Shown piece by piece: positions 56,001 through 62,460 of a stretch of 64,000 nucleotides of DNA (positions within the stretch are counted from its first letter, which is position 1; each line of letters starts with the position of its first letter). The translations under genes and the position numbers were made by a program. The notes under the pieces are model-generated. The model did no database searches, had not been told where the DNA came from, and saw only the letters and a program-made list of their open reading frames with translations. Source of the DNA: Calliopum simillimum (lineage: Eukaryota > Arthropoda > Insecta > Diptera > Lauxaniidae); NCBI GenBank assembly GCA_951812925.1, contig OX638371.1, positions 115,963,124 through 116,027,123 of the forward strand, read 5' to 3'.

Positions 56001-57884
56001 ACGCCCTTCAACGAGTTTTCCCAAAATAACGGTGTATATTTATCCCTGTTTGCAGAGGTAATATCTCCTAAATTTTCATTAAAATTGTTGGAGTCGTTTT
56101 CGAGTAATATTGAATCAAAATTTTCAAGGGTTGAAAAATGGGCGTGGCACTTATTCGATCCCGCCCACTTTTTGTCTGTTACAACGTATTTTTAAGTCCT
56201 ATATTTGGCACAGAAATAAGTACAAAGTAACAAAGAAACATACACTTTTAGCTCGTATAAGAAGAGAAGATTTTGCATTCGTTTTGTTTTTGTTTTACGT
56301 TCAAAATTTAAGGCAACTTTTCTCAAGATCCACATTACGTTTTAATTGTTATACATCATATTTTTATTTATTCCGCATTAGATACATTGCTGAAATACGC
56401 AATCCCAATAGTGATATACCATTGCCTGATGACCTGAAAGGCGGCAAGGAACGTATGGTTTTCGGAAATATTGAAGCTATCTATGAGTGGCACCGAGAGT
56501 ATGTTGTTACATTTATTTGTTTTTTTTTTTAAGTTTTTTATAAAAACTTTTTTTCTGTTTTTCTAGCTATTTTCTCAAGGCTTTGCAACGTTGCCAAAAG
56601 GCACCAGCTGAACTTGGCGCCATGATTAAGCGGTATGAACCTAAATTTCATATGTACATCGTTTATTGTCAAAATAAACCAGTGTCAGAGCACATTGTAA
56701 CCGAACATTATATGTATTTTGAGCAAATTCGACAGAAACTAAGACACCGTTTAGATGTAAGTTTCAACATTTATTTAAACTTGTATTAGGTTTCCATTTT
56801 GGTTTATTTTATTTGTATTAGATATATGTCTATTTAATCAATATATAAAATTTTCCGCTTTCTCTCTGTTTGTGCAGCTGAGCGATTTACTCATAAAACC
56901 TGTACAAAGAATAACAAAGTATGAACTACTTTTGCGAGAAATCACTAAACAAACTGAACGTGCTGGTCTTGTAGATGAAGTTTGCAGCATGGACGAATCA
57001 TTTCGTGTAATGAAGGTATGTATTATAACTTTCGCCAATAAAAGTTTAGTTAAAATTTATGAATCAATGCAGGTTGTTTGTAAGGCTGTCAATGACATGA
57101 TGGTGCTAAGACGTTTACAAAGATTTGGTGGTAAAATAACAGCGCAGGGTAAATTATTACTGCATGGACCGCTCACATGCATCGACGATCCAAAGAGTGT
57201 GGAACGCAATGCGTGTATGGTACAAAAACCGCGGGAACTTCAAGTATTCTTATTTGAACAAAGTATTATCTTTTCGGATATTGTTGGGAAAAAGACGCAG
57301 TTCACAAGTCCTTCATACATATATCGCTCCCACATACAGGTTAGTTATCAAATATATTAGCAAATTGACAATCACAGCTAGCTATTAAAAAACAAGACTT
57401 AGTATTTTCACAACAAATTTCTAACGCTTTGTAATCAACCTAGGGGTCTGCACAAGATGTCTTGTTAAAGTCTTAAAACATTTAATTTCACGACACGTTA
57501 TATCTTGTACCCGCTTTTTATTGATCAAACACTTATACTTCAAGTACACTATATTTAAAGATGTCTTGAGCAGGCTCCTATTTCGAACTGCAAACTATTA
57601 ACATGAGTTATTAATTTCAACTGCTGTAATAAGATTCTTATATATTTTTCTTCTTTATGCAGGTTAACAAAATGCAACTCGAAGAGCTGCCCAATAATCG
57701 TTTTCTACTCAAATCTACAGATCCAAATCGACCTGATTTACATATGGTCTGCTATGCGGCAACCGTTGATTTGAATCGTGAATGGTTGGAAACAATACGC
57801 AACATTCTACAGTCACAACATGATTTCCTTAAAGCAATCACCAGTCCCATACAATACCAAAAAGAATTGACGAAGGATACGTGA
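4334..57884 (+). CDS. trio: Trio, short (GEF2-type) isoform: SH3-DH-PH Rho guanine nucleotide exchange factor, 13 coding exons
   Basis: Joining 4334-5029, 31876-32167, 32225-32285, 42769-42874, 43993-44241, 54385-54459, 54561-54692, 54758-54873, 56382-56498, 56567-56756, 56878-57015, 57073-57339 and 57663-57884 gives 2661 nt in one open frame (886 residues plus TGA); every junction has GT/AG ends and compatible phase. Order: Ser/Thr/Asn-rich unique N-terminus (1-232), SH3 (about 238-303), basic linker (330-385), acidic/Pro-rich linker (386-550), DH (about 552-728) with the hallmark helix LLIKPVQRITKYELLL, and PH (about 735-850). Trio family proteins exchange GDP on Rac/Rho GTPases at the membrane and cytoskeleton, notably in axon guidance; the second DH-PH unit is the Rho-directed one. 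The product lacks spectrin repeats and GEF1, so it corresponds to the short isoform with its own first exon. Longer isoforms probably splice from upstream of the window into the 31876 exon. Kalirin-type paralogues are less likely in a fly. Confidence 0.94.
5340..5640. repeat. dispersed repeat, also at 35310-35760
   Basis: Phrases such as TATCTCTGAAACTATTTA, GACAAATAATG and GAGGTTTGGTAC recur near 35340-35520 with divergence. Old, unclassified family; no ORF. Confidence 0.5.
6213..6940. mobile_element. non-autonomous TIR element with 9-bp target duplication and GGACATAATCCCC iterons
   Basis: TTAGTCAAC flanks it on both sides (6204-6212, 6941-6949). Ends are GGTTACCGGACATAATCCC and, reading inward from the right, GGTGCCGTGACATAATCCCC. 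About a dozen copies of (G)GACATAATCCCCA in both orientations are packed near the two ends. The middle is a GC-rich 147-bp tandem repeat. A 9-bp duplication fits Mutator-like (MULE) elements; assignment is tentative. Confidence 0.85.
6378..6775. repeat. GC-rich 147-bp tandem repeat, almost three units
   Basis: Units begin at about 6378, 6523 and 6670 (GTGTTGGAT...). Each has the palindrome CGCGGCCGAAGGCCGCCGCG or a decayed form, then CTGAGCTGCGGC. The unit length, a multiple of three, leaves a minus-strand frame open across all units; I regard that as a by-product. The composition is strikingly GC-rich in an AT-rich region. Confidence 0.85.
7001..7255. mobile_element. 255-bp MITE with 46-bp terminal inverted repeats
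   Basis: Left arm GAGGAGTAATTTTTCAAAAG and onward (GGCTTATAACCAAAACGAGG, CAAAAG) is repeated inverted at the right end (…CTTTTGAAAAATCACTCCTC). Flanked by AACT (6997-7000, 7256-7259), a 4-bp target duplication. No coding capacity. Confidence 0.85.
7870..8750 (-). pseudogene. Tc1/mariner-type transposase, broken
   Basis: The N-terminal part (8390-8644, 84 codons) reads MSLGRKASIDPQLVKKMKRL and continues through a helix-turn-helix (NTSERDMAARAGTSKFSVNR). Downstream, frames give MDDETYV (first catalytic Asp), FPKQYMVWQVICTCG, FLPFIREHGGTVMFWPDLA (second Asp) and RPIERYW (catalytic Glu). In-frame stops and a deletion after the second Asp separate them, so no active enzyme can be made. The family moves DNA by cut-and-paste at TA. 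Confidence 0.85.
8960..10690. other. AT-rich intronic stretch
   Basis: Contains TACATACATACA-type microsatellite DNA (9360-9385, 9780-9790) and homopolymers. No transposon ends, RNA gene or exon recognised. Confidence 0.45.
10720..12030. repeat. ladder of degenerate repeats (GAGTTCGCCTTGTGGCCGAA / GGGGCGTGGCACCGCCCAC)
   Basis: ACTAGAGTTCGCCTTGTGGC opens units at 10721 and 11404. Sub-units of about 110-130 bp share CCAAATTTCATAAAAATC, GCCGTGAGAGCGTTTTTT and GGCGTGGCACCGCCCAC. It ends at AAATCGGTTGARATTTAGGT and TTTCGTTTG. Non-coding, old and of unknown class; single units recur at 16800-17130. Confidence 0.75.
12035..12166. repeat. dispersed repeat shared with 45185-45330
   Basis: Both copies contain TGCAAACTCRC, TTTTTCAGAAAATKTATGAT and AAATTGAAAGAG in order. 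The mariner at 12167 was inserted at the end of this copy. Confidence 0.55.
12167..13042 (+). mobile_element. mariner element, decayed
   Basis: Terminal repeats TTGGGTGTACAACTTAAAAA and TTTTTAAGTTGTACACCCAA are perfect inverted copies, followed inward by CCGGAA/TTCCGG. TA flanks both sides (12165-12166, 13043-13044). At 876 bp it is shorter than a full mariner (about 1.3 kb) because of deletions in the transposase. Confidence 0.93.
12349..12870 (+). pseudogene. mariner (DD34D-type) transposase pseudogene
   Basis: Fragments in shifting frames: FLHRIVTRDEKWIHYDNPKR (first Asp in RDEKW), SNNHGAKVMLC, a deletion, then DLYRTQLIRLKRAIIEKRPE, TIFHDNARPHIAAPVKNYLE (second Asp), and in another frame QDLAPSDYHLFRSMQNALSG (third Asp). 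At least two frameshifts and loss of the segment between VMLC and DLYR. All three catalytic Asp codons survive, so inactivation was by indels. Confidence 0.93.
13045..14490. other. intronic stretch without recognised genes
   Basis: ATT/ATC microsatellite at about 13480-13512. A short ORF at 14102-14359 has no known motif. About 13120-13330 is less AT-rich than its surroundings but shows no open frame. Confidence 0.4.
14496..15401 (-). mobile_element. pogo-like TA-target element, copy 1
   Basis: Ends GGGTAAGGGAGGGAAATATG and CATATTTCCCTCCTTTACCC are inverted; TA borders at 14494-14495 and 15402-15403. Minus-strand frames keep a cysteine-rich tail (TLYSEDRRGEFWVECV, RSWSHEKCAECGSDIFICNFC) that resembles PHD-like fingers at the C-terminus of some insect pogo-type transposases. 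The DDE core is absent. Near-identical to 20287-21172. Confidence 0.85.
15404..16799. other. intronic stretch; one GGATTCGGATTCAGCA motif
   Basis: At 16055-16090, GAGACTGGATTCGGATTCAGC matches the motif found in the foldback elements of this window. A GT microsatellite lies near 16475-16488. No exon seen. Confidence 0.4.
16800..17130. repeat. single unit of the 10.7-12.0 kb repeat ladder
   Basis: Shares GCCTTGTGGCCGAAATTTGA, ACCAAATTTTATAAAAATCG and a degraded GCCGTGAGAGCG motif, ending TTTCGTTTTCCTATTTAT. Confidence 0.7.
17131..17765. other. AT-rich intronic stretch
   Basis: No repeat boundary, RNA gene or exon recognised; short ORFs only. Confidence 0.4.
17766..18165. repeat. three-copy dispersed repeat, copy 1
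   Basis: Shares a run of motifs with 23243-23535 and 40083-40445: ATTATACACCAT, GGTAAAATTAAATRCAAATT, CACACAGAGCTGAAAA, CAGGGATGATAAATGAG, ACCAAATAGCAA, AAAAAGTACCAAAA, ACATTTGTGGTCAAATTT. No ORF; terminal repeats not evident. Confidence 0.8.
18166..19839. other. intronic stretch
   Basis: An AAAT microsatellite at about 19222-19246 and unique-looking AT-rich DNA. No feature supported. Confidence 0.4.
19840..20136. mobile_element. 297-bp foldback MITE with CACAGG ends and TAA target site
   Basis: Arms of about 135 bp are inverted copies: CACAGGCCCAC...AAGTACCCTGCG and CGCAGGGTACTT...GTGACCTGTG, plus GCGAACCAACTT near the loop. Flanked by TAA (19837-19839, 20137-20139). It contains GCTGAATCCGAATATG. 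A 3-bp TWA target duplication fits PIF/Harbinger-like elements. Confidence 0.85.
20287..21172 (-). mobile_element. pogo-like TA-target element, copy 2
   Basis: Same ends and interior as 14496-15401, with TA at 20285-20286 and 21173-21174. It differs by scattered substitutions and a small deletion near the TATAGTCCAT segment (about 20510-20525). Minus-strand cysteine-rich remnant present but broken. Confidence 0.87.
21500..22018. repeat. dispersed fly repeat, related (inverted) to 34370-34960
   Basis: ATGCCACGACCTCTTRTCCG, GTTTTTGGTCAGAGCTTGCG, GGAGGCAGTGTATCAAATTT, and at the end CAGACAGACGGACATG... GATCAAGAATTTATAT. The last phrase is a common ending of an old dispersed repeat in higher flies. 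Non-coding. Confidence 0.7.
22023..23226. mobile_element. TIR element with TCGTTAGCTTAATATGG ends carrying a minisatellite
   Basis: TCGTTAGCTTAATATGGAAA at 22023 and its inverse TTTCCATATTAAGCTAACGA at the right end, extended by AGGCGTAACTCACATTTT. TA at 22021-22022 and 23227-23228. Sub-terminal copies of AAAAGCCCTAACTCAC occur near 22138, 22177 and 22986. No transposase. Confidence 0.8.
22270..22745. repeat. tandem repeat of about 120-140 bp, four degenerate units
   Basis: Each unit carries CCGAAGGTT/CACCCGAAGGCTT, CAAAACGAAGAATATCT, ATACTAGAGG and GGCGGACTATCAA. Units diverge by many substitutions. The same array, two units, is found at 45775-46030 outside any recognisable copy of the surrounding element. 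Confidence 0.8.
23243..23535. repeat. three-copy dispersed repeat, copy 2
   Basis: Same motif order as 17766-18165, lacking the first part; abuts the right end of the 22023-23226 element. Confidence 0.75.
23536..24599. other. intronic stretch
   Basis: No recognised repeat boundary or exon; short ORFs only. Confidence 0.4.
24604..24854. mobile_element. 251-bp MITE, copy A (ATAT target site)
   Basis: Ends GGAGAGTGTTTTGCAATAAT and its inverted partner (reading inward GGACACTGTCATGCAAGAAC), then GTCAACCC. Flanked by ATAT (24600-24603, 24855-24858). Homologous to 30369-30617 in inverted orientation, sharing TACGTTTTTGTGTAGATGTC. Confidence 0.85.
25020..25900. repeat. inverted pair of B-box-bearing SINE-like units with AAAACGGATTCG arms
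   Basis: CAAAACGGATTCGCTTTAAT (25362) is inverted at 25770 (AACGCGAATCCGTTTTGA). Between and beside them, GGATTCGAACCCTGG (25290; minus-strand tRNA B box) and CCGGGTTCGCCTCC (25658; plus strand) each sit next to long A/T runs. This looks like two tRNA-related units in opposite orientation. Confidence 0.55.
25930..26735. other. intronic stretch with GT and CATACA microsatellites
   Basis: GTGTGTGAGTGTGTGTGTGT at about 26218-26240. Several short ORFs are of low complexity. Nothing further. Confidence 0.4.
26740..27350 (+). repeat. tandem SINE-like units (about 205 bp), three copies
   Basis: Units start at ACAATGATTTTTTATAAGG (26741), ACAATGATTCCATATAAGG (26943) and ACAAAGATTCTATGTAATG (27150). 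The first two carry GTGAGTTCGAACCCAGCCCG (a tRNA B-box core) followed by long T runs and a tail TATTTCACTTTTCTATTTT. The same tail, inverted, follows the tRNA-like unit at 37608-37684. Confidence 0.75.
27217..27303 (+). repeat. tRNA-derived SINE head (A and B boxes), not a functional tRNA
   Basis: TTGGTGGAGCGGTCTAAAGG matches an RNA polymerase III A box of the tRNA-Leu/Ser style. GTCGTGGATTCAAATCCTGG contains a B box, and T runs follow. T-stem pairing is poor and the acceptor stem does not close, so I call it a SINE head or tRNA pseudogene. Confidence 0.6.
27400..29440. other. AT-rich intronic stretch
   Basis: Only homopolymers and short ORFs; no exon or transposon ends recognised. Confidence 0.4.
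29451..29876. mobile_element. 426-bp foldback MITE with TTA target site
   Basis: Left AAAGTTTTGCGGGATTTTTG and right CAAAAATCCCGCAAAACTTT are inverted; inner arms GCTACCTCGAGTCGTGTTCG / CGAACACGATTCGAGGTAGC and GGCGCGAG...CCATATTGGAAAAATGG also pair. TTA flanks at 29448-29450 and 29877-29879. Harbinger-like by target length. Confidence 0.83.
29920..30360. repeat. long hairpin built of GCGG(A/C)(C/G)AAGAAAATC repeats
   Basis: TGCTTACGAAG at 29920 pairs with CTTCGTAAGCA at 30350-30360. Each arm has five or six tandem copies of a roughly 33-bp unit such as AATGCGGAGAAGAAAATCAC (left) and GTGATTTTCTTCTCCGCATT (right). A transcript would form a long, nearly perfect duplex. Confidence 0.85.
30369..30617. 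mobile_element. 249-bp MITE, copy B (ATAG target site)
   Basis: GGACACTGTTATGCAATAAC at the left is inverted at the right (GTTATTGCATAACACTGTCC). ATAG duplicated at 30365-30368 and 30618-30621. Same family as 24604-24854. Confidence 0.9.
30639..31506 (+). mobile_element. pogo-like TA-target element, copy 3 (inverted)
   Basis: Left GGATAAGCGAGGGTAACATG, right TTCCTCCCTTACCC; TA at 30637-30638 and 31507-31508. Opposite orientation to copies 1 and 2 and more diverged. The plus strand reads KKQIYLSSSSDGESIYSFHD, then EDEKCICC, then in a shifted frame EVWVECAIWRSWSHE and GSDIFICNFC, the same cysteine-rich tail. Confidence 0.85.
31876..32167 (+). CDS. trio: trio exon 2: SH3 domain (residues 233-330)
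   Basis: Preceded by a pyrimidine-rich acceptor (ATCTTTTAG) and followed by the strong donor GTATGT at 32168. It encodes VGTLEATWVVSDYIATPG, with the SH3 features VVSDY (ALYDY equivalent), acidic KGQQVEIVEA, and EGLVPVSIL (the GxVP motif). A Gly/Ser-rich linker follows. The usual SH3 tryptophan region reads DFCLVRL, as in the diverged SH3 between the two GEF units of Trio. This exon is probably shared by long and short isoforms. It ends after one base of a Ser codon. Confidence 0.93.
32225..32285 (+). CDS. trio: trio exon 3: short linker exon (residues 330-350)
   Basis: A 61-bp exon bounded by acceptor ACTTATAG and donor GTAAGT (32286). It reads SNNRGKPDPLTSSTKRRVFG. The 57-bp intron upstream and the phase (1 in, 2 out) agree with both neighbours. 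It is too short to stand out as an ORF; I place it by frame and by the KRRVFGG/RKWLPQPLRKLS junction typical of Trio. Confidence 0.9.
34370..34960. repeat. dispersed fly repeat, inverted relative of 21500-22018
   Basis: CGTTGAAATTTGATACGCTG, AACTTTAGGTGTATTTTT, GCAAGCTCTGAGCAAAAACT and repeated TCGGACAAGRNGTGGCACC. Two or three internal sub-units of about 120 bp. Confidence 0.7.
35050..35296. mobile_element. 247-bp MITE derived from the 5846-7803 element
   Basis: CTGCCGTCCTAAGCAAGAAT to ATTCTTTCTTAGGACGGCAG, flanked by TATT (35046-35049, 35297-35300). About the first 180 bp follow the left part of the larger element closely (GGGTCATCTCGGTTC, AACAGGTTGCATTATACCTT), then it jumps to the right end: an internal-deletion derivative. 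Confidence 0.9.
35310..35760. repeat. dispersed repeat related to 5340-5640
   Basis: ATCTCTGAAACTATTTAGCG, GACAAATAATGTGTCCTTGG and GATGCCACACCCC repeat in two or three tandem sub-units. No ORF of interest. Confidence 0.5.
35761..37180. other. intronic stretch with GTT microsatellite
   Basis: GTTGTTGGTGTTGTTGTTGT at about 36378-36402 and another near 36535-36550. Low-complexity ORFs only. Confidence 0.4.
37343..37395 (-). repeat. tRNA-derived SINE-like head, minus strand
   Basis: On the minus strand: GTCAATGGTGTAGAGGTCTA (A box) and GGTCGTAGATTCAAATCC (B box), next to an A run on the plus strand (37327-37342), that is, a T run after the head. Confidence 0.6.
37450..37684 (-). repeat. full SINE-like unit, minus strand
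   Basis: The head at 37608-37684 reads GGTCAATGGTGTAGTGGTCT (A box) and GTCGTAGGTTCGTATCCTTC (B box) over 77 nt. It is followed by T-rich DNA and the tail TTTTACTTTTCTATTTTCCT, ending near ATTACATAATGATTTTATG. The tail matches the tandem units at 26740-27350. The acceptor stem does not pair, so it is not a functional tRNA. Confidence 0.7.
37700..39260. other. intronic stretch without supported features
   Basis: AT-rich. An 86-codon minus-strand ORF (38269-38529) has no known motif. No repeat ends recognised. Confidence 0.4.
39270..40075 (-). pseudogene. mariner-type transposase relic
   Basis: Minus-strand fragments in order: HKRKSVTTSKESLT; RRFVIVDETWIR (first Asp, at about 39915-39950); FLGKMCHKEG; SANKIMAT (about 39800-39840); and near 39480-39570 FSKLSPCDHFLFPNLINWLG then GKRLESNEEV, the third catalytic Asp region (C-D-H-F-L-F, normally PSDFFLF). 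The fragments lie in different frames with stops. Terminal repeats not identified; the dispersed repeat at 40083 follows at once. Confidence 0.8.
40083..40445. repeat. three-copy dispersed repeat, copy 3
   Basis: Same order of motifs as 17766-18165, including CACACAGAGCTGAAAAAAGG and CAGGGATGATAAATGAGC, ending ACATTTGTGGTCAAATTTTG. Confidence 0.8.
40450..42600. other. intronic stretch
   Basis: TGTC microsatellite at about 41093-41113. Otherwise AT-rich, no gene recognised. Confidence 0.4.
42769..42874 (+). CDS. trio: trio exon 4: basic linker (residues 350-385)
   Basis: Acceptor TTTCTTGCAG at 42759-42768, donor GTAAGT at 42875. It encodes RKWLPQPLRKLSQSKVEK followed by a Lys-rich PPTEKSLIKKASEKNLR. 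This basic segment follows the SH3 region in Trio and Kalirin. It lies 10.5 kb downstream of exon 3 across an intron full of repeats. Confidence 0.92.
43072..43629. repeat. foldback repeat in trio intron 4
   Basis: GAAGTGATGCAGAAAAATTT at 43073 is inverted near 43600 (AAATTTTTCTGCATCATTCA), with CTTCAATAA/TTATTGAAG inside. The intervening 500 bp has CCCCACATGTGGGT, a short palindrome. Target duplication not identified. Confidence 0.65.
43993..44241 (+). CDS. trio: trio exon 5: acidic/proline-rich linker (residues 386-468)
   Basis: Acceptor TTTACCACTAG, donor GTGAGC at 44242; 83 codons, phase 0 at both ends. It begins MLPKPAEHDEENITSG and later reads YEVEEEAGPELPPPMKPI, a Pro-rich stretch that could bind SH3 or WW domains. 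No catalytic domain. The opening ATG is internal to the joined frame, not a start. Confidence 0.9.
45379..45721. mobile_element. 343-bp foldback MITE, long near-perfect arms, TAA target site
   Basis: TGCCCCAGACAGACGGCAGC at the left and GCTGCCGTCTGTCTGGGGCA at the right; arms of about 145 bp match with few differences (e.g. TTTCATGGACATTGAC versus GTCAATGTCTATGAAA). TAA at 45376-45378 and 45722-45724. The high arm identity suggests a young insertion. Confidence 0.9.
45760..46030. repeat. minisatellite related to 22270-22745
   Basis: GTATGGGAAGGTTTTTATGC, ATACTAGAGGAAAAACATCT and GGCGGACTATCGACAAGCC repeat the units of the 22-kb array, here about two units. Confidence 0.75.
47637..47965. repeat. 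iteron-rich block of GGAAATAA(A/C)GCCA repeats
   Basis: At least eight copies of GGAAATAACGCCA/GGAAATAAAGCCA or the inverse TGGCTTTATTTCC in both orientations, spaced 20-50 bp. It resembles the sub-terminal iterons of the 6213-6940 element in design. Clear terminal repeats and target duplication were not found. Confidence 0.65.
50380..50660 (+). other. coding-like or promoter-like island in trio intron 5
   Basis: CpG-containing and less AT-rich than its surroundings. After an acceptor-like CATTTTAG (ends 50522), one frame reads TGTPPERRRRSRRTFIHANA and on to a TGA at 50640. That phase does not continue exon 5. GCTCAGTATC (50627) resembles an initiator. It could be an alternative exon, a leader, or chance. 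Confidence 0.25.
51946..52584. mobile_element. 639-bp foldback element with CACAGTG ends and TTA target site
   Basis: CACAGTGCAAC and GTCGCACTGTG at the ends; arms of about 260 bp pair throughout (AAAACTACCATGCGGATTCT versus AGAATCCGCATGGTAGTTTT). TTA at 51943-51945 and 52585-52587. Confidence 0.88.
52710..53568. mobile_element. 859-bp foldback element with CACAGG ends and TTA target site
   Basis: CACAGGTTTACAAAAAAA and its inverse TTTTTTTGTAAACCTGTG; arms of about 370 bp (GTGTTTCCTAGGGACTTTGA versus TCAAAGTCCCTAGGAAACAC). TTA at 52707-52709 and 53569-53571. It includes the GGATTCGGATTCAGGA motif. A CAA-rich loop lies at 53160-53195. Confidence 0.9.
54385..54459 (+). CDS. trio: trio exon 6: 25-codon exon (residues 469-493)
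   Basis: Acceptor TTTACATTGCAG, donor GTAAGT at 54460; phase 0/0. It encodes ASTGKMDGNTAIDLSEIEQL then VKEKT, a predicted helix leading toward the DH domain. Being exactly 75 bp and phase 0, it could be skipped without a frame change, but nothing here shows that it is. Confidence 0.88.
54561..54692 (+). CDS. trio: trio exon 7: Asn/Asp-rich linker (residues 494-537)
   Basis: Acceptor TTTTTGTAAAG, donor GTAAGC at 54693; 44 codons, phase 0/0. It starts EQHEEKSKILKPNFDANN and ends DNVTDNNDE. It is separated from exon 6 by a 101-bp intron. Like exon 6, it is a symmetric exon just before the DH domain. Confidence 0.88.
54758..54873 (+). CDS. trio: trio exon 8: start of the DH domain (residues 538-576)
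   Basis: Acceptor AAAAACGTAG, donor GTTAGT at 54874. It encodes RKRYCALAELLSTEELYIQD, helix 1 (conserved region 1) of a Dbl-homology domain: the pattern ELxxTExxYxxDL contacts switch regions of the GTPase. Leaves two bases of a Gly codon. The intron upstream is 65 bp. Confidence 0.94.
55560..56200. repeat. tandemly duplicated dispersed repeat in trio intron 8
   Basis: TTGGAGTCGTTATCGAGTAA (55692) and TTGGAGTCGTTTTCGAGTAA (56091) mark two units about 400 bp apart. Each has CGCCCACTTTT and ACGAGTTTT.. AACGGT boxes. Related in style to the GGCGTGGCACCGCCCAC ladders. Confidence 0.65.
56382..56498 (+). CDS. trio: trio exon 9: DH domain, middle (residues 576-615)
   Basis: Acceptor ATTCCGCATTAG, donor GTATGT at 56499. 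It encodes YIAEIRNPNSDIPLPDDLKG and then KERMVFGNIEAIYEWHR, the loop and helix between conserved regions 1 and 2, with the typical (I/V)FGNIxxIYxWH motif. The 1.5-kb intron upstream is filled by a duplicated dispersed repeat. Confidence 0.94.
56567..56756 (+). CDS. trio: trio exon 10: DH domain conserved region 2 (residues 615-678)
   Basis: Acceptor GTTTTTCTAG, donor GTAAGT at 56757. It encodes DYFLKALQRCQKAPAELGAM and the region FHMYIVYCQNKPVSEHIV, the long helices of conserved region 2 that support the catalytic face. Intron upstream 68 bp. Confidence 0.94.
56878..57015 (+). CDS. trio: trio exon 11: DH domain conserved region 3 (residues 679-724)
   Basis: Acceptor TTTGTGCAG, donor GTATGT at 57016. 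It encodes LSDLLIKPVQRITKYELLLR, the most conserved helix of RhoGEF domains, which inserts between the GTPase switches. Ends FRVMK at phase 0, followed by a 57-bp intron that is itself open in frame. Confidence 0.95.
57073..57339 (+). CDS. trio: trio exon 12: DH-PH junction and most of the PH domain (residues 725-813)
   Basis: Acceptor TCAATGCAG, donor GTTAGT at 57340. It encodes VVCKAVNDMMVLRRLQRFGG, the last DH helix, then PH strands including GKLLLHGPLTC, RELQVFLFEQSIIFSDIVGK and the loop to YIYRSHIQ. PH domains of RhoGEFs bind phosphoinositides and help position the GTPase. Confidence 0.94.
57663..57884 (+). CDS. trio: trio exon 13: end of the PH domain and C-terminus (residues 814-886)
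   Basis: Acceptor TTCTTTATGCAG; the frame ends with TGA at 57882-57884. It encodes VNKMQLEELPNNRFLLKSTD, the last PH strands, and the C-terminal helix VDLNREWLETIRNILQSQHD with the invariant PH tryptophan. The product stops about 20 residues past the PH domain: no second SH3, Ig or kinase domain, as expected for fly Trio and unlike vertebrate long forms. Confidence 0.94.
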   Translation, partial: VNKMQLEELPNNRFLLKSTDPNRPDLHMVCYAATVDLNREWLETIRNILQSQHDFLKAITSPIQYQKELTKDT

Positions 57885-58849: not shown

Positions 58850-59830
58850 CGTGACCCTGTTTAAAATTGCATTTTAAATATCTCGAAAACATCAAAGCAA
58901 CGAAATTTGGTATGTGATTAAAGAAAACAGGGTACCTACTCAAAAACTCGGTCAATATTTTTAATTGACACTCAGAAGCGTTTTTATTCGGTATTCAGGA
59001 AAAGTAAAGAAAATAAAAATACACTGTGGTATAGAATGCTATTCTAGTCGGTCATAAGTCTGGCTGTTTTTAATAAAAAAAATATCAGATTTTATGTTTT
59101 TGGGGTTGCTGATTCCAAATCTGGAAATCATTTTTTAAAAATCAAAATGGCGAACCCAAATTGGCGTACAATTTTCTCAAAAAATTAATATCTCGACAAA
59201 ATTGTGGCTAGATGGATTTTGGAGTCTGCTAACTCCGAATTTGAAATGAACTTTTTAATGGCGGACAATTTTCTTTAAAAAAAAAAAATTACGGTTAGCT
59301 TAGGTAAGGTTGCGAGGGCGTAGTCGGCATATATGTAAGCCGACTTCCACCTAGACCATTCTGCTGGTCTATTGTGATCCTTCTTTAAAAATGGTTATAT
59401 TACAACAAAATTGTGGCTAGGGAGGTATTTCAGCCGGCTGATTCCAAATTTTGGATAAAATTTGCGAAATAAAAATGGCGGATAGTTTAGGATCACGCCT
59501 ATTTTCAGCTTAAAGCTAGTTGATACCGATTATATCTCAGATATCAAATATTATTGTTGTATTTCAAATATTCCCGTGGTTATGGAGATTTCAAACTTCC
59601 GGCCATATAGAAGGTGGGCTTGTCCTTGATCTGATCGCGCCCATTTTTAATTAATAGCTTTATGCCTCCTCAGATATCAAATATTATTGTTGTACTTGAA
59701 TTATTTCTAAAGTTATTGCAATTTCTAATTTTGGACTATATGGGAGGTGAGCGTGTCCTTGGCCCAATCGTAGTGTCCTTGACCCGATCATGACTATTTT
59801 TAACAAATGGCTAGATGCTACCAATACTAT
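58850..59830. repeat. dispersed repeats between trio and the Fanzor gene
   Basis: Two units with CAGATATCAAATATTATTGT (59549, 59671) and GCGTGTCCTTG/GGCTTGTCCTTG; blocks with ATCTCGACAAAATTGTGGCT. At about 59292-59385, GGTTAGCTTAGGTAAGGTTG followed by TAGACCATTCTGCTGGTCTA is like the end of a dispersed fly retroelement. No ORF. Confidence 0.55.
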
Positions 59831-59872
59831 CTCTGATATCGCATTTAATTTAAACAGTTTGGCTATTATTAG

Positions 59873-59968
59873 TATTACGAAGCTGGAGCGTTTCAGGAAT
59901 ACAGAAAAGTTGCTGAAGAAAAACTAAGCGCAGTTCAAAATGCGACGAACCTTACATTACACATTTAA
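59873..59968 (+). other. coding-like 31-codon segment just upstream of the Fanzor gene
   Basis: After ATTATTAG (acceptor-like), one frame reads YYEAGAFQEYRKVAEEKLSA, continues VQNATNLTLHI and stops at TAA (59966-59968). The composition looks protein-like (amphipathic, helix-forming) and unlike the surroundings. Could be a terminal exon of a captured or decayed gene; no family recognised. Confidence 0.25.
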
Positions 59969-60109
59969 ACAATCGAGCCGTTGCAACTCCATAAAACTTT
60001 CTTATAATCCACCGAGTGCAATATTCGTTTATTTGGGAAATAAAATTAGAGATTCTTTGTGATGATCCGAATATCCTTTTTGTAGTAAAAAAAATATTAA
60101 TATCTAAGT

Positions 60110-60294
60110 ATGCAATTCGTAAGAATTGAAATTTCAATGGCGAAAAGACTAAGTGATTTAAACAATAGTAGTAAACAACATACAGAATTTGTAATAAAAA
60201 AAGCTCTATTTTCAACATGCAAGAATGAAGAAATTTATCAAAAAATTCAACAAGACGTTGACGAAATGTCGGCACTCTTTGTAGAAGTTTCCAG
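60110..60294 (+). CDS. Fanzor exon 1 (residues 1-61 and part of 62)
   Basis: ATG at 60110 is the first in frame after a TAA at 60098-60100. It encodes MQFVRIEISMAKRLSDLNNS and a helical segment EEIYQKIQQDVDEMSALFVE. A second in-frame ATG (60137) could also serve. Ends TTTCCAG with donor GTAATT at 60295; without splicing the frame stops at once (TAA). Confidence 0.82.
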
Positions 60295-61939
60295 GTAATT
60301 ATAATATTTCTTTTAATATACAATTCAAGATTTACAATGTCATTATTTATCTACACACACACACAGATATATACATTTTGTTCTAATGAGGAAATGGAAA
60401 GCTGGAGATTTTAACGAAATAAAATTTGCCGATTATTATTATCATTTGATGGTAAAGAAAAAATCAAAGTACATTATCGACGAGGACTATGCTAAATTTC
60501 GTAAAGATTTGCCGTTTTACAACAGTGCATACCGATCAAATTTATTCATCGATTCCGCCAATCAGTATAGCGTCATATTTCACAACAACATATGGATGCA
60601 TGCGTATAGTAGACTACGAAGGTTTTTCAAGAAATTCACTGAAGATAATACAAAAATCTATAATACATTAAACTATTTATTCTGCGACCAAGATGACAAT
60701 AAAAACAAAGAGCCAGATTTTGATCTACTGATTCATTTGATCGAGGAATTACAATGGAATGGTGAAAAATTATCCAACTTGAAAAATAAAAAACTATATT
60801 GGTCAACAGGCATTAAACTATTTTTCAATCTACAAAGATTCAACGAAAGAAACAATTATCGCAATTTCTCAATGATTCCCATATTCAAACACGGAGCACA
60901 TCATATTCGCTATGATTCGTATGCCTTCTATTCGCTGTTGTGTTCGTTAAAGTTGTACAAGGGTCCATGGAAAACTTTCGATCGTGCAGAATATTGGGAA
61001 AAATATTTCAAAATTCCGTATGCTCAATCCTTGTCAGAGAAAAAATTTGATTATTCTCTACAGACCGACGGTGTAGCTGTATCGTTTCTAATGCGAAAAC
61101 CAATTGTAAAGTTAAATACTGCAAAGAATTCTGCAAAACGAAAAAGAACTTCAGCAATTCGAGGCGAAAACAAAGAAATTGAATACTATACAAATGTCAA
61201 TTTGGAGAAAATACGCTCAACAGAATATGCCAACAAAATTGGTCTTGATCCGGGACTACGTTTGATATATGGTGGAGTTCGTAATGGAAAGCCAATCAAA
61301 CTGAAAAATTCTACATATCAACATATGAGCGGATTCTATTCGCGCAAATGTAAATTAAAAAGATTCACTTCAATGTGCCCAGAAAATACAAAATATTCGG
61401 CCAATTCAATTGAGGATCTGGAGAACTATACGCAATACGAATTGGAGATATTTCTTGAAAAACAAATGATTTTCAGTCAACGTAAAGTAACCAGATTAAA
61501 ATTACAAAAATACATTTGTGTAGAGAAGACTTGTCATAAGCTGGCTAAAGAACTTGTTGGACCTGGTAATAATGGATCGACTCTAATTTGTATCGGTTCA
61601 AGTGAAATCTCATCAGCGTCACCAATGCGCGGCTATATACGGACACCACATCGGAAATTTGTACGGGCATTGCGAGAACATAAAAATGTCGACGTTATGT
61701 TAGTTAATGAATATAGAACCACTAAGCTATGTGCAAATTGTTATTTTGAAAATAAAACATCACGATCACCACACAGGTATCAATTTTGTCCAAATTGCAA
61801 TACTTGTTGGAATCGTGATGTTAATGCTGGTGCTAATATATTGTACTTGGGCCAATGTATTATTGCCGGTATCAAAAAAAATGAAAATTTTTGTAAAAGT
61901 ACTACTATTTCTGGTATAGCGAAAAATGTATGTACTTGA
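60110..61939 (+). CDS. Fanzor (eukaryotic TnpB-like RNA-guided nuclease), two exons, 585 residues
   Basis: Joining 60110-60294 to 60367-61939 (1758 nt) gives 585 residues with no stops. The C-terminal half is a split RuvC nuclease: IGLDPGLRLIYGG (RuvC-I, Asp at about 356), TLICIGSSEIS (the RuvC-II strand), VNEYRTTKLCANC and FCPNCNTCW (zinc ribbon, Cys at about 517, 520, 536, 539), then NRDVNAGANIL (RuvC-III, Asp about 546). This order is diagnostic of TnpB/Fanzor. Fanzors are carried by eukaryotic mobile elements and use a guide RNA encoded near the gene's 3' end to cut DNA. The N-terminal 340 residues are probably the RNA- and DNA-binding lobe; I do not recognise individual motifs there. AATAAA at 61953. 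It lies 2.2 kb past trio on the same strand and is unrelated to it in function. IS605-type TnpB contamination is excluded by the intron. Confidence 0.9.
60367..61939 (+). CDS. Fanzor exon 2: most of the protein, including RuvC and zinc ribbon
   Basis: Acceptor is an AC run ending ACACAG at 60366; the intron is 72 bp. The frame resumes as RYIHFVLMRKWKAGDFNEIK, giving a continuous helix with exon 1, which supports the junction. It runs uninterrupted for more than 520 codons to TGA at 61937-61939. If the intron is not spliced, an internal ATG at 60386 would give a 517-residue form. A basic patch (NSAKRKRTSAIRG, about 318-330) could serve as a nuclear localisation signal. Confidence 0.9.
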
Positions 61940-62460
61940 CCGATTTTATTGTAATAAATAAAAATGGTTTAACTCTGGAAAATTCAGATAACACAATCGT
62001 GTAGTCTGGGTCTGAAAGGGTTACAAATATTCTATATTTTATTAATAAAAAATAAATAAATAAATAGAAATATTTAAAATACAAATAATAAAAATTGAAA
62101 GATTTCGTTTTTATTTATTTGGATCGTACCCAGATAGAAACAGAAGCAAATAAAAATACGAAAACGCTAAAACATCGATCGGTAGGTATTGTATCTATAT
62201 GACTATATAGGATTTATTGTAGGTTTGTATTTAACAACTTTTTTTAACTACAAAACTCACAAAAAATGTTTAAGCTACAAAAACCGCACACTAACATTTT
62301 TTGTGTATAAGTAACCGATGACCTTGAACAAAATTTTTGGACAGCGCCCTTCATAACTGAATATTTACATAAGTATCTCTTGCCAATGATAAAATAAATG
62401 CATTACGAGGAAATTATAAAATTAAAATAAAGAAAAATCCAGCAAGATTACTTATATAAA
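61940..62460 (+). other. 3' flank of the Fanzor gene: poly(A) signal and possible guide-RNA region
   Basis: AATAAA at 61953-61958 is close to the stop. TCTGGGT (about 62007) and ACCCAGA (about 62130) could pair. Otherwise AT-rich. In this family the guide RNA is expected at or after the 3' end of the gene, but nothing here proves it. No terminal inverted repeat was found. Confidence 0.3.

Follow-up and report, generated by a model that had tools for sequence, protein, structure and literature searches.

A Fanzor1 gene on a 5′-truncated element

The window, a stretch of 64,000 nucleotides of Calliopum simillimum DNA, carries a gene for a spliced Fanzor1 protein of 576 residues, the frame of which is open across both exons (Table 1). 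Read without splicing, the frame meets a stop after codon 53. Homologous proteins run continuously across the 60294/60367 junction, with P0003 reading VEVSRYIHF at the same point, and over exon 2 P0001–P0007 are 58–62% identical to the window protein. In the 24 other copies holding this region, the sequence common with the window begins at 60116 (60124 in L022) and diverges leftwards; the ATG at 60110 straddles the element boundary and lies partly outside the element. Because the shared element sequence begins at 60116, the start is likely to be 60137. The open two-exon frame given in the preliminary description was thus upheld, with a GT-AG intron, its start moved and its length reduced from 585 to 576 residues.

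The protein has a TnpB-like RuvC domain with a C4 zinc ribbon and a D...E...RD motif, and its landmarks could all be located (GLDPG at residue 345, NEYRTT at 500, CANC at 508, CPNC at 527 and NRDVNA at 535). The profile search and structure prediction proposed in that description were run, and both agree with its assignment to Fanzor. PF07282 was matched at 35.5 bits (Pfam cut-off 26.3). An AlphaFold2 model of 523 residues of exon 2 (mean pLDDT 81.9) has the overall fold of Fanzor1, the best seven PDB matches all being Fanzor1 proteins: SpuFz (TM 0.59–0.61), PpFz and GtFz. With SpuFz1, GtFz1 and PpFz1 the fly system shares this structural match, the RuvC and zinc-ribbon motifs and an omega-RNA-like right end (predicted in the fly), but identity in the structural alignments is only 13–17% and the fly vehicle appears to be of piggyBac type. 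By its motifs and modelled fold, the window gene encodes a Fanzor1 RNA-guided nuclease with putative cleavage activity. A RhoGEF/PH-domain exon at 56779–57357 fits the neighbouring gene named earlier, trio, whose identity rests on that exon.

Table 1. Features of the Fanzor1 locus in the window
Feature	Position	Strand	Remarks
Left flank	59773..60115	+	99% match to DNA next to copy L010/L039, 9.5 kb downstream
5′-truncated element	60116..62020	+	Begins 21 bp ahead of the ATG; right end ...CTGAAAGGG
Last bases of LTR-derived leader/promoter	60116..60125	+	TATA box (−310 from the ATG in full-length copies) absent in the window
Fanzor1 exon 1	60137..60294	+	Start ATG 60137; junction matches homologues such as P0001–P0007
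Intron, 72 bp, GT-AG	60295..60366	+	GT-AG kept in 23 of 23 family A copies compared
Fanzor1 exon 2, RuvC and zinc-ribbon (TNB) domains	60367..61939	+	Stop included
D347 codon (GLDPG)	61247..61249	+	Presumed first RuvC catalytic residue; motif position, role inferred from Fanzor1 literature
E501 codon (NEYRTT)	61709..61711	+	Presumed RuvC glutamate; motif, column at least 90% conserved, role inferred
D537 codon (NRDVNA)	61817..61819	+	Presumed last RuvC catalytic residue; motif position, role inferred
Predicted omega-RNA scaffold	61938..62024	+	Thermodynamic prediction; similar shape in families A and B
Right terminal inverted repeat, 52 bp	61969..62020	−	Exact to left repeat of full-length L041; left partner missing in the window
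TTAC target site at right end	62021..62024	+	Adjoins right terminal repeat

Of the element, the window copy retains its Fanzor gene together with the right repeat and the omega-RNA-like end; missing are the left terminal repeat, the promoter and nearly all of the 5′ leader, so that only one of the two ends of a piggyBac element is present. A search of the 1.5 kb to the left found no duplication of the TTAC end that reached 7 bp. A stretch of 1,908 bp of the window copy is identical to a second copy, L010, which lies 9.5 kb downstream. Among the matches listed, the left flank has its 99% match only beside L010, the longer others being ~68–80% identical. At L010, a further 1,354 bases lie between the shared flank and the gene. 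The simplest reading is that one of the two loci, L010 or that in the window, would have been copied from the other, and that 1.35 kb was later lost from the window locus. The DNA at 59500–60115 is itself a copy of a very abundant repeat (~71% identity; best 40 of 1340 candidates scored).

A young family under purifying selection

There are 109 places in the 690-Mb genome with PF07282 matches above the cut-off. The strongest match of the assembly (L001, on contig C295, 39 kb long) matches OrfB_IS605 as well, looks like a bacterial-type TnpB and is likely to be contamination or a symbiont. The window gene gave 48 DNA matches, corresponding to at least ~40 elements (40 of 142 candidates scored), which we define as family A. 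A sister family, B, has 34 copies (of 42 matches, the remainder being partial) that are ~99% identical or more over nearly the full query; identity among family A copies is likewise ~99% or more, and the two families share 70% amino-acid identity over exon 2. One B copy (L007, 2000–3189) lies near an apparent gene which, from its protein sequence, we take to be a chaperonin (TCP-1-like).

Twenty-three A copies were compared and classed (L009–L030 and L033); L031, L032, L034–L038 and eighteen further matches, which were incomplete, short or not retrieved, do not enter the count. The frame is intact in 13 of the 23. The pN/pS ratio is 0.34 among the intact copies and 0.51 over all 23, and dN/dS between A and B is ~0.09 with dS saturated. 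Purifying selection is visible at the family level. The copies are also mosaic (11 copies, 29 sites, permutation p 0.005). The intron common to A and B is absent from a family D copy (L003) and from several homologues, so it has been gained or lost within these elements.

The preliminary description attributed the intact frame to recent arrival or selection. Recent copying is borne out by the identical copy 9.5 kb away, but the gene is one of many copies and not a single arrival, and selection applies to the family. At the window locus the intact frame is more likely to reflect youth, because the left repeat, promoter and most of the leader have been lost. A host-domesticated gene held by selection at this locus would agree with the open frame and the family-level selection; we regard it as highly improbable in a multi-copy family where this copy has neither promoter nor left end, has an identical copy 9.5 kb away and is flanked by a repeat. 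The window copy is a promoterless, 5′-truncated member of a recently active Fanzor1 element family, and is probably silent since the left repeat and LTR-derived promoter are missing. The locus had therefore been over-read: the Fanzor gene is real, but it belongs to a young, probably silent copy.

Full-length elements have piggyBac-type ends

Full-length A copies (L012/L041) are 3.49 kb long with an exact terminal repeat of 52 bp. L011, L012 and L018 are flanked on either side by TTAA or TTAT, and the two-ended A and B copies in general by ~4-bp TTAN duplications, TTAT being commoner than TTAA. The target of canonical piggyBac is almost strictly TTAA, with a stagger of 4 bp.

A scan of the genome for the same terminal repeat found three pairs 2.6–2.7 kb apart that contain no Fanzor gene. 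The pair with an open frame encodes a piggyBac transposase (PF13843, E 9.4e-58; piggyBat structure, E 2.8e-23). The CCC...GGG terminal repeats are shared with this same-genome piggyBac, CCCTTTCAGACC being exact, with further similarity to the L116 end seen by eye. Because of the shared terminal repeats, the 4-bp TTAN duplications and the transposase partner in the same genome, the Fanzor elements are best read as putative non-autonomous, piggyBac-type passengers.

In full-length A copies, the gene is preceded by ~420 bp with 92% identity to the LTR of a retrotransposon of this genome that carries gag, and this LTR-like leader has a TATA box at −310 relative to the ATG. As seen in L044 and at window positions 60116–60125, a retrotransposon LTR has apparently been recruited as the promoter and leader of family A.

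Most left ends are missing, often with a ∼12-bp duplication nearby

The left end is missing in 43 of the 57 classed A and B copies (19/23 A and 24/34 B, by reading). Here L024 was counted as two-ended though its match starts at base 20, and B copy k was moved to the two-ended class when its left repeat was found, a change included in the Fisher tests below. One fixed end, a variable other end and the inclusion of donor flank make up the pattern of one-ended transposition, and all three are seen here. The queries that gathered the A and B copies came from the right part of the element and so favour copies anchored on the right; when the left part was used (best 40 of 74 candidates scored), no large left-only copy turned up, only fragments of up to ~450 bp.

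Duplications were then counted in 47 one-ended copies (19 A, 24 B and 4 C). In this census L031 was added, L014 was left out as its left junction lies beyond the fetched end, copy k still stands among the one-ended (scoring 4), x was dropped as its right end was not found, and the C copies c2 and c6 were left out. In 20 of the 47, a duplication of 10–16 bp (median 12, typically 12–13) stands no more than 100 bp from the left junction and repeats the first bases of the right flank, beginning TTA(N). With 1000 shuffled pairings, the mean number of copies with a target-site duplication (TSD) of at least 9 bp was 0.109 and the maximum was 2. The remaining 27 have no TSD of at least 9 bp within 100 bp. 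Nine two-ended B copies have TSDs of 3–5 bp.

Further TSDs were found past filler or captured DNA: 14 bp at a distance of 1,167 bp in L010, 15 bp at 968 bp in g, and 13 bp in j, 1,105 bp before the assigned break, together with 14 bp in i, 12 bp in h and L033, and 13 bp in r when more sequence was taken. Those of L015 (10 bp) and L019 (9 bp), at distances of 594 and 394 bp respectively, were judged too weak and were not counted. B copy f has a ~45-bp imperfect repeat on both sides, seen by eye (L072/L054), which is longer than the other TSDs and may be compared with the 44–443 bp cases of Chlamydomonas. Some left junctions show filler or microhomology of 1–3 bp. Left flanks of other copies are carried by L010 (that of the window copy), g (that of w) and j and p (that of m), and truncated copies can therefore serve as templates. 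Donor-flank capture was rejected for h, i, k and r, where the stretch is an insertion shared inside the element.

For comparison, 12 Fanzor-less piggyBac copies were kept from 26 matches after weak, internal and end-piece matches had been dropped. By reading, 10 of the 12 are two-ended and 2 one-ended, against 14 and 43 for A and B (Fisher p 0.0002, the control's right end not being the same as that of A and B). The difference persists if two short piggyBac end pieces (125 and 80 bp) are counted as one-ended (p 0.003). Element length alone is not the cause, because the piggyBac control, at 2.72 kb, is longer than B (~2.16 kb).

The right end as a predicted omega-RNA

The right end is predicted to fold as an omega-RNA scaffold with a first stem (GACCG...GGUU), an inner stem-loop and a terminal stem (UAACUCU/AGGGUUA) that takes in the TTA of the target site; the predicted guide would start at 62025. 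Compared with single-base shuffles, the predicted fold of the last 75 nt has a z-score of −3.5 in A and −2.8 in B. The predicted end is intact in the window copy.

Four of the six family C copies have TSDs (c1, 15 bp; c3, 13 bp; c4, 12 bp; c5, 10 bp); c2 has no TSD and the 8 bp of c6 lie far off, neither being convincing. The terminal GGG is replaced by GAG or AAG in c1–c3 and c5, and c4 has the repeat-like GTCTAAGGG at its end. In predicted folds, TTA closes the hairpin in c3, c4 and c5; for c1 it does so only if the folding is limited to a short stretch. The termini before TTAN differ between C copies (GTAGAG, AAAG, AAGGG and AAG; L119, L132, L134, L136, L138 and L140), so the right end is unfixed in this family. 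The left regions of the six C copies hold the right end of another element (GGTCTGAAAGGGTTA) in the same orientation (L130, L131, L133, L135, L137 and L139), as would be expected had a chimera come to serve as template.

These ends bear on whether the piggyBac transposase alone, through one-ended transposition or aborted gap repair, accounts for the pattern with Fanzor as a passenger. Whether an A or B copy has one end or two, its right end is the piggyBac repeat plus TTAN; mosaicism and filler are what aborted repair typically yields, and the c4 end is repeat-like. However, the 4-bp stagger of piggyBac does not explain TSDs of 10–16 bp, the Fanzor-less piggyBac of this genome is two-ended in 10 of 12 copies, and c1, c3 and c5 do not have the GGG repeat. 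Fanzor elements of Helitron type and from Mucor, which use other transposases, also show a similar pattern in the published descriptions accessible to us. We consider this explanation unlikely.

Alternatively, a LINE-type reverse transcriptase could act on a read-through transcript after recognising the 3′ hairpin of the omega-RNA end. The 5′ truncation, TSD length, microhomology and filler resemble target-primed reverse transcription of LINEs and SINEs, c1, c3 and c5 keep the hairpin when the GGG repeat is gone, and the intron is absent from L003 and several homologues. Against such RNA-templated insertion, the intron is kept in all 23 A copies compared, the right ends have no poly-A, and there is no RNA-like 5′ limit of the LINE type: 9 of the 24 one-ended B copies begin upstream of the TATA box, and several copies bring with them as much as ~1.1 kb of left-flanking genomic DNA or filler, so read-through RNAs would be needed. 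We therefore hold this route to be fairly improbable.

A tentative model for right-end copying

The reading to which we lean, at a little under even confidence, is that the piggyBac transposase would move complete copies, whereas a one-ended copy would come from DNA synthesis that begins at the right end and proceeds towards the left until it breaks off, its product then being end-joined. The RNA of the Fanzor/omega-RNA complex would be the right end itself, and this complex may make or direct the break ~12 bp from TTAN. Such a process would be a form of cut-and-copy like that proposed for TnpB, and the window copy would be the product of right-end copying followed by the 1.35-kb deletion. Fanzor is implicated because it is the common factor across vehicles (piggyBac-type, Helitron and MCi-2).

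The C copies with TSDs of 10–15 bp, of which c1, c3 and c5 have no GGG repeat yet keep the predicted hairpin, argue for a role of Fanzor; the c4 end, which still resembles the piggyBac repeat, argues against it, as do the conditional TTA pairing in c1 and the lack of a convincing TSD in c2 and c6. The 27 one-ended copies in which no TSD of at least 9 bp lies within 100 bp, and the bias of right-part queries, also count against the model. The position of the cut is also a difficulty. Known Fanzor cuts lie mostly 14–21 bp past the TAM, and nearer only for the target-strand cut of MmeFz2 (9–14), according to the accessible text of Saito 2023. Cuts at 14–21 bp predict a TSD of ~18–21 bp including TTAN and not 12 bp, so trimming or a different cut must be assumed.

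Two related schemes were considered. Guide-directed insertion at new sites was rejected, as the right flanks of donor and daughter copies are unmatched beyond TTAN. In-situ homing would explain the right-end bias, with the TSD as the cut position; if the process were restricted to the element's own empty site, templates would have to be switched ectopically very often, and family C would be hard to accommodate. As a sole mechanism it agrees poorly with C right ends without GGG at several loci and with the captured flanks, and it is kept only as a variant of right-end copying. A broader proposal is that the mobile right end is set by Fanzor and its omega-RNA instead of the piggyBac transposase, and that these drive copy-type insertion with ~12-bp duplications, in the same mode in unrelated Fanzor elements (piggyBac-type in the fly, Helitron in Chlamydomonas and MCi-2 in Mucor). 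We regard this generalisation as doubtful.

Relation to other Fanzor elements

The following comparisons draw on the portions of the cited papers available to us. In Chlamydomonas, Fanzor Helitrons are 5′-truncated with TSDs of 7–19 bp, and a Fanzor-less relative has TSDs in 1 of 200 copies; whether Fanzor or element length causes this difference was left open by Bao and Jurka 2013 (PMC3627910). Like the fly elements, CRe-1/2/3 have truncated 5′ ends, an intact 3′ end, variable TSDs and captured upstream sequence (PMC3627910), but they are algal and carried by a Helitron, whereas the fly vehicle has TTAN and terminal repeats and a narrower TSD range (10–16 against 7–19 bp). Mucor MCi-2 has TSDs of 11–12 bp (PMC3627910).

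The insect-virus Fanzor1 elements HVav-1, SFav-1, PUgv-1, HAgv-1 and HAmn-1 (13-bp terminal inverted repeats) likewise have TTAN duplications and terminal repeats (PMC3627910). In SfAV, as in the fly, Fanzor is alone on the element and the TSD is folded into the scaffold (PMC10711439). The fly differs in having a piggyBac partner with the same ends, and the viral elements are likened to it by description, not by sequence. In the text accessible to us, Bao and Jurka 2013 assigned the viral TTAN elements to no superfamily (PMC3627910), and the 2023 NAR paper called the vehicle an unknown family (PMC10711439). No close viral relatives were found in IMG/VR with a single-sequence query, the reach of which is close relatives, and no published link between Fanzor and piggyBac was found in the accessible parts of the open literature, including PMC12324416, PMC3627910 and PMC13199778.

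In TnpB/IS605 cut-and-copy, as predicted for the fly, the right end doubles as the guide RNA; scarless excision would restore the target of such a right-end guide. The IS605 transposase is of another class, and the fly process is inferred from scars only. Help by Fanzors in the cut-and-copy of their host elements is a proposal only in the available text of Saito 2023.

The value of this case is the family around the window locus and not the single copy. A superfamily is suggested for the insect TTAN Fanzor elements, at least in Calliopum simillimum. The role of Fanzor becomes testable in this young family, which offers dozens of nearly identical copies, a piggyBac relative without Fanzor for comparison and a measurable scar of TTAN plus ~8 bp. 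If Fanzor does drive insertion across vehicles, it would be a propagation enzyme in its own right.
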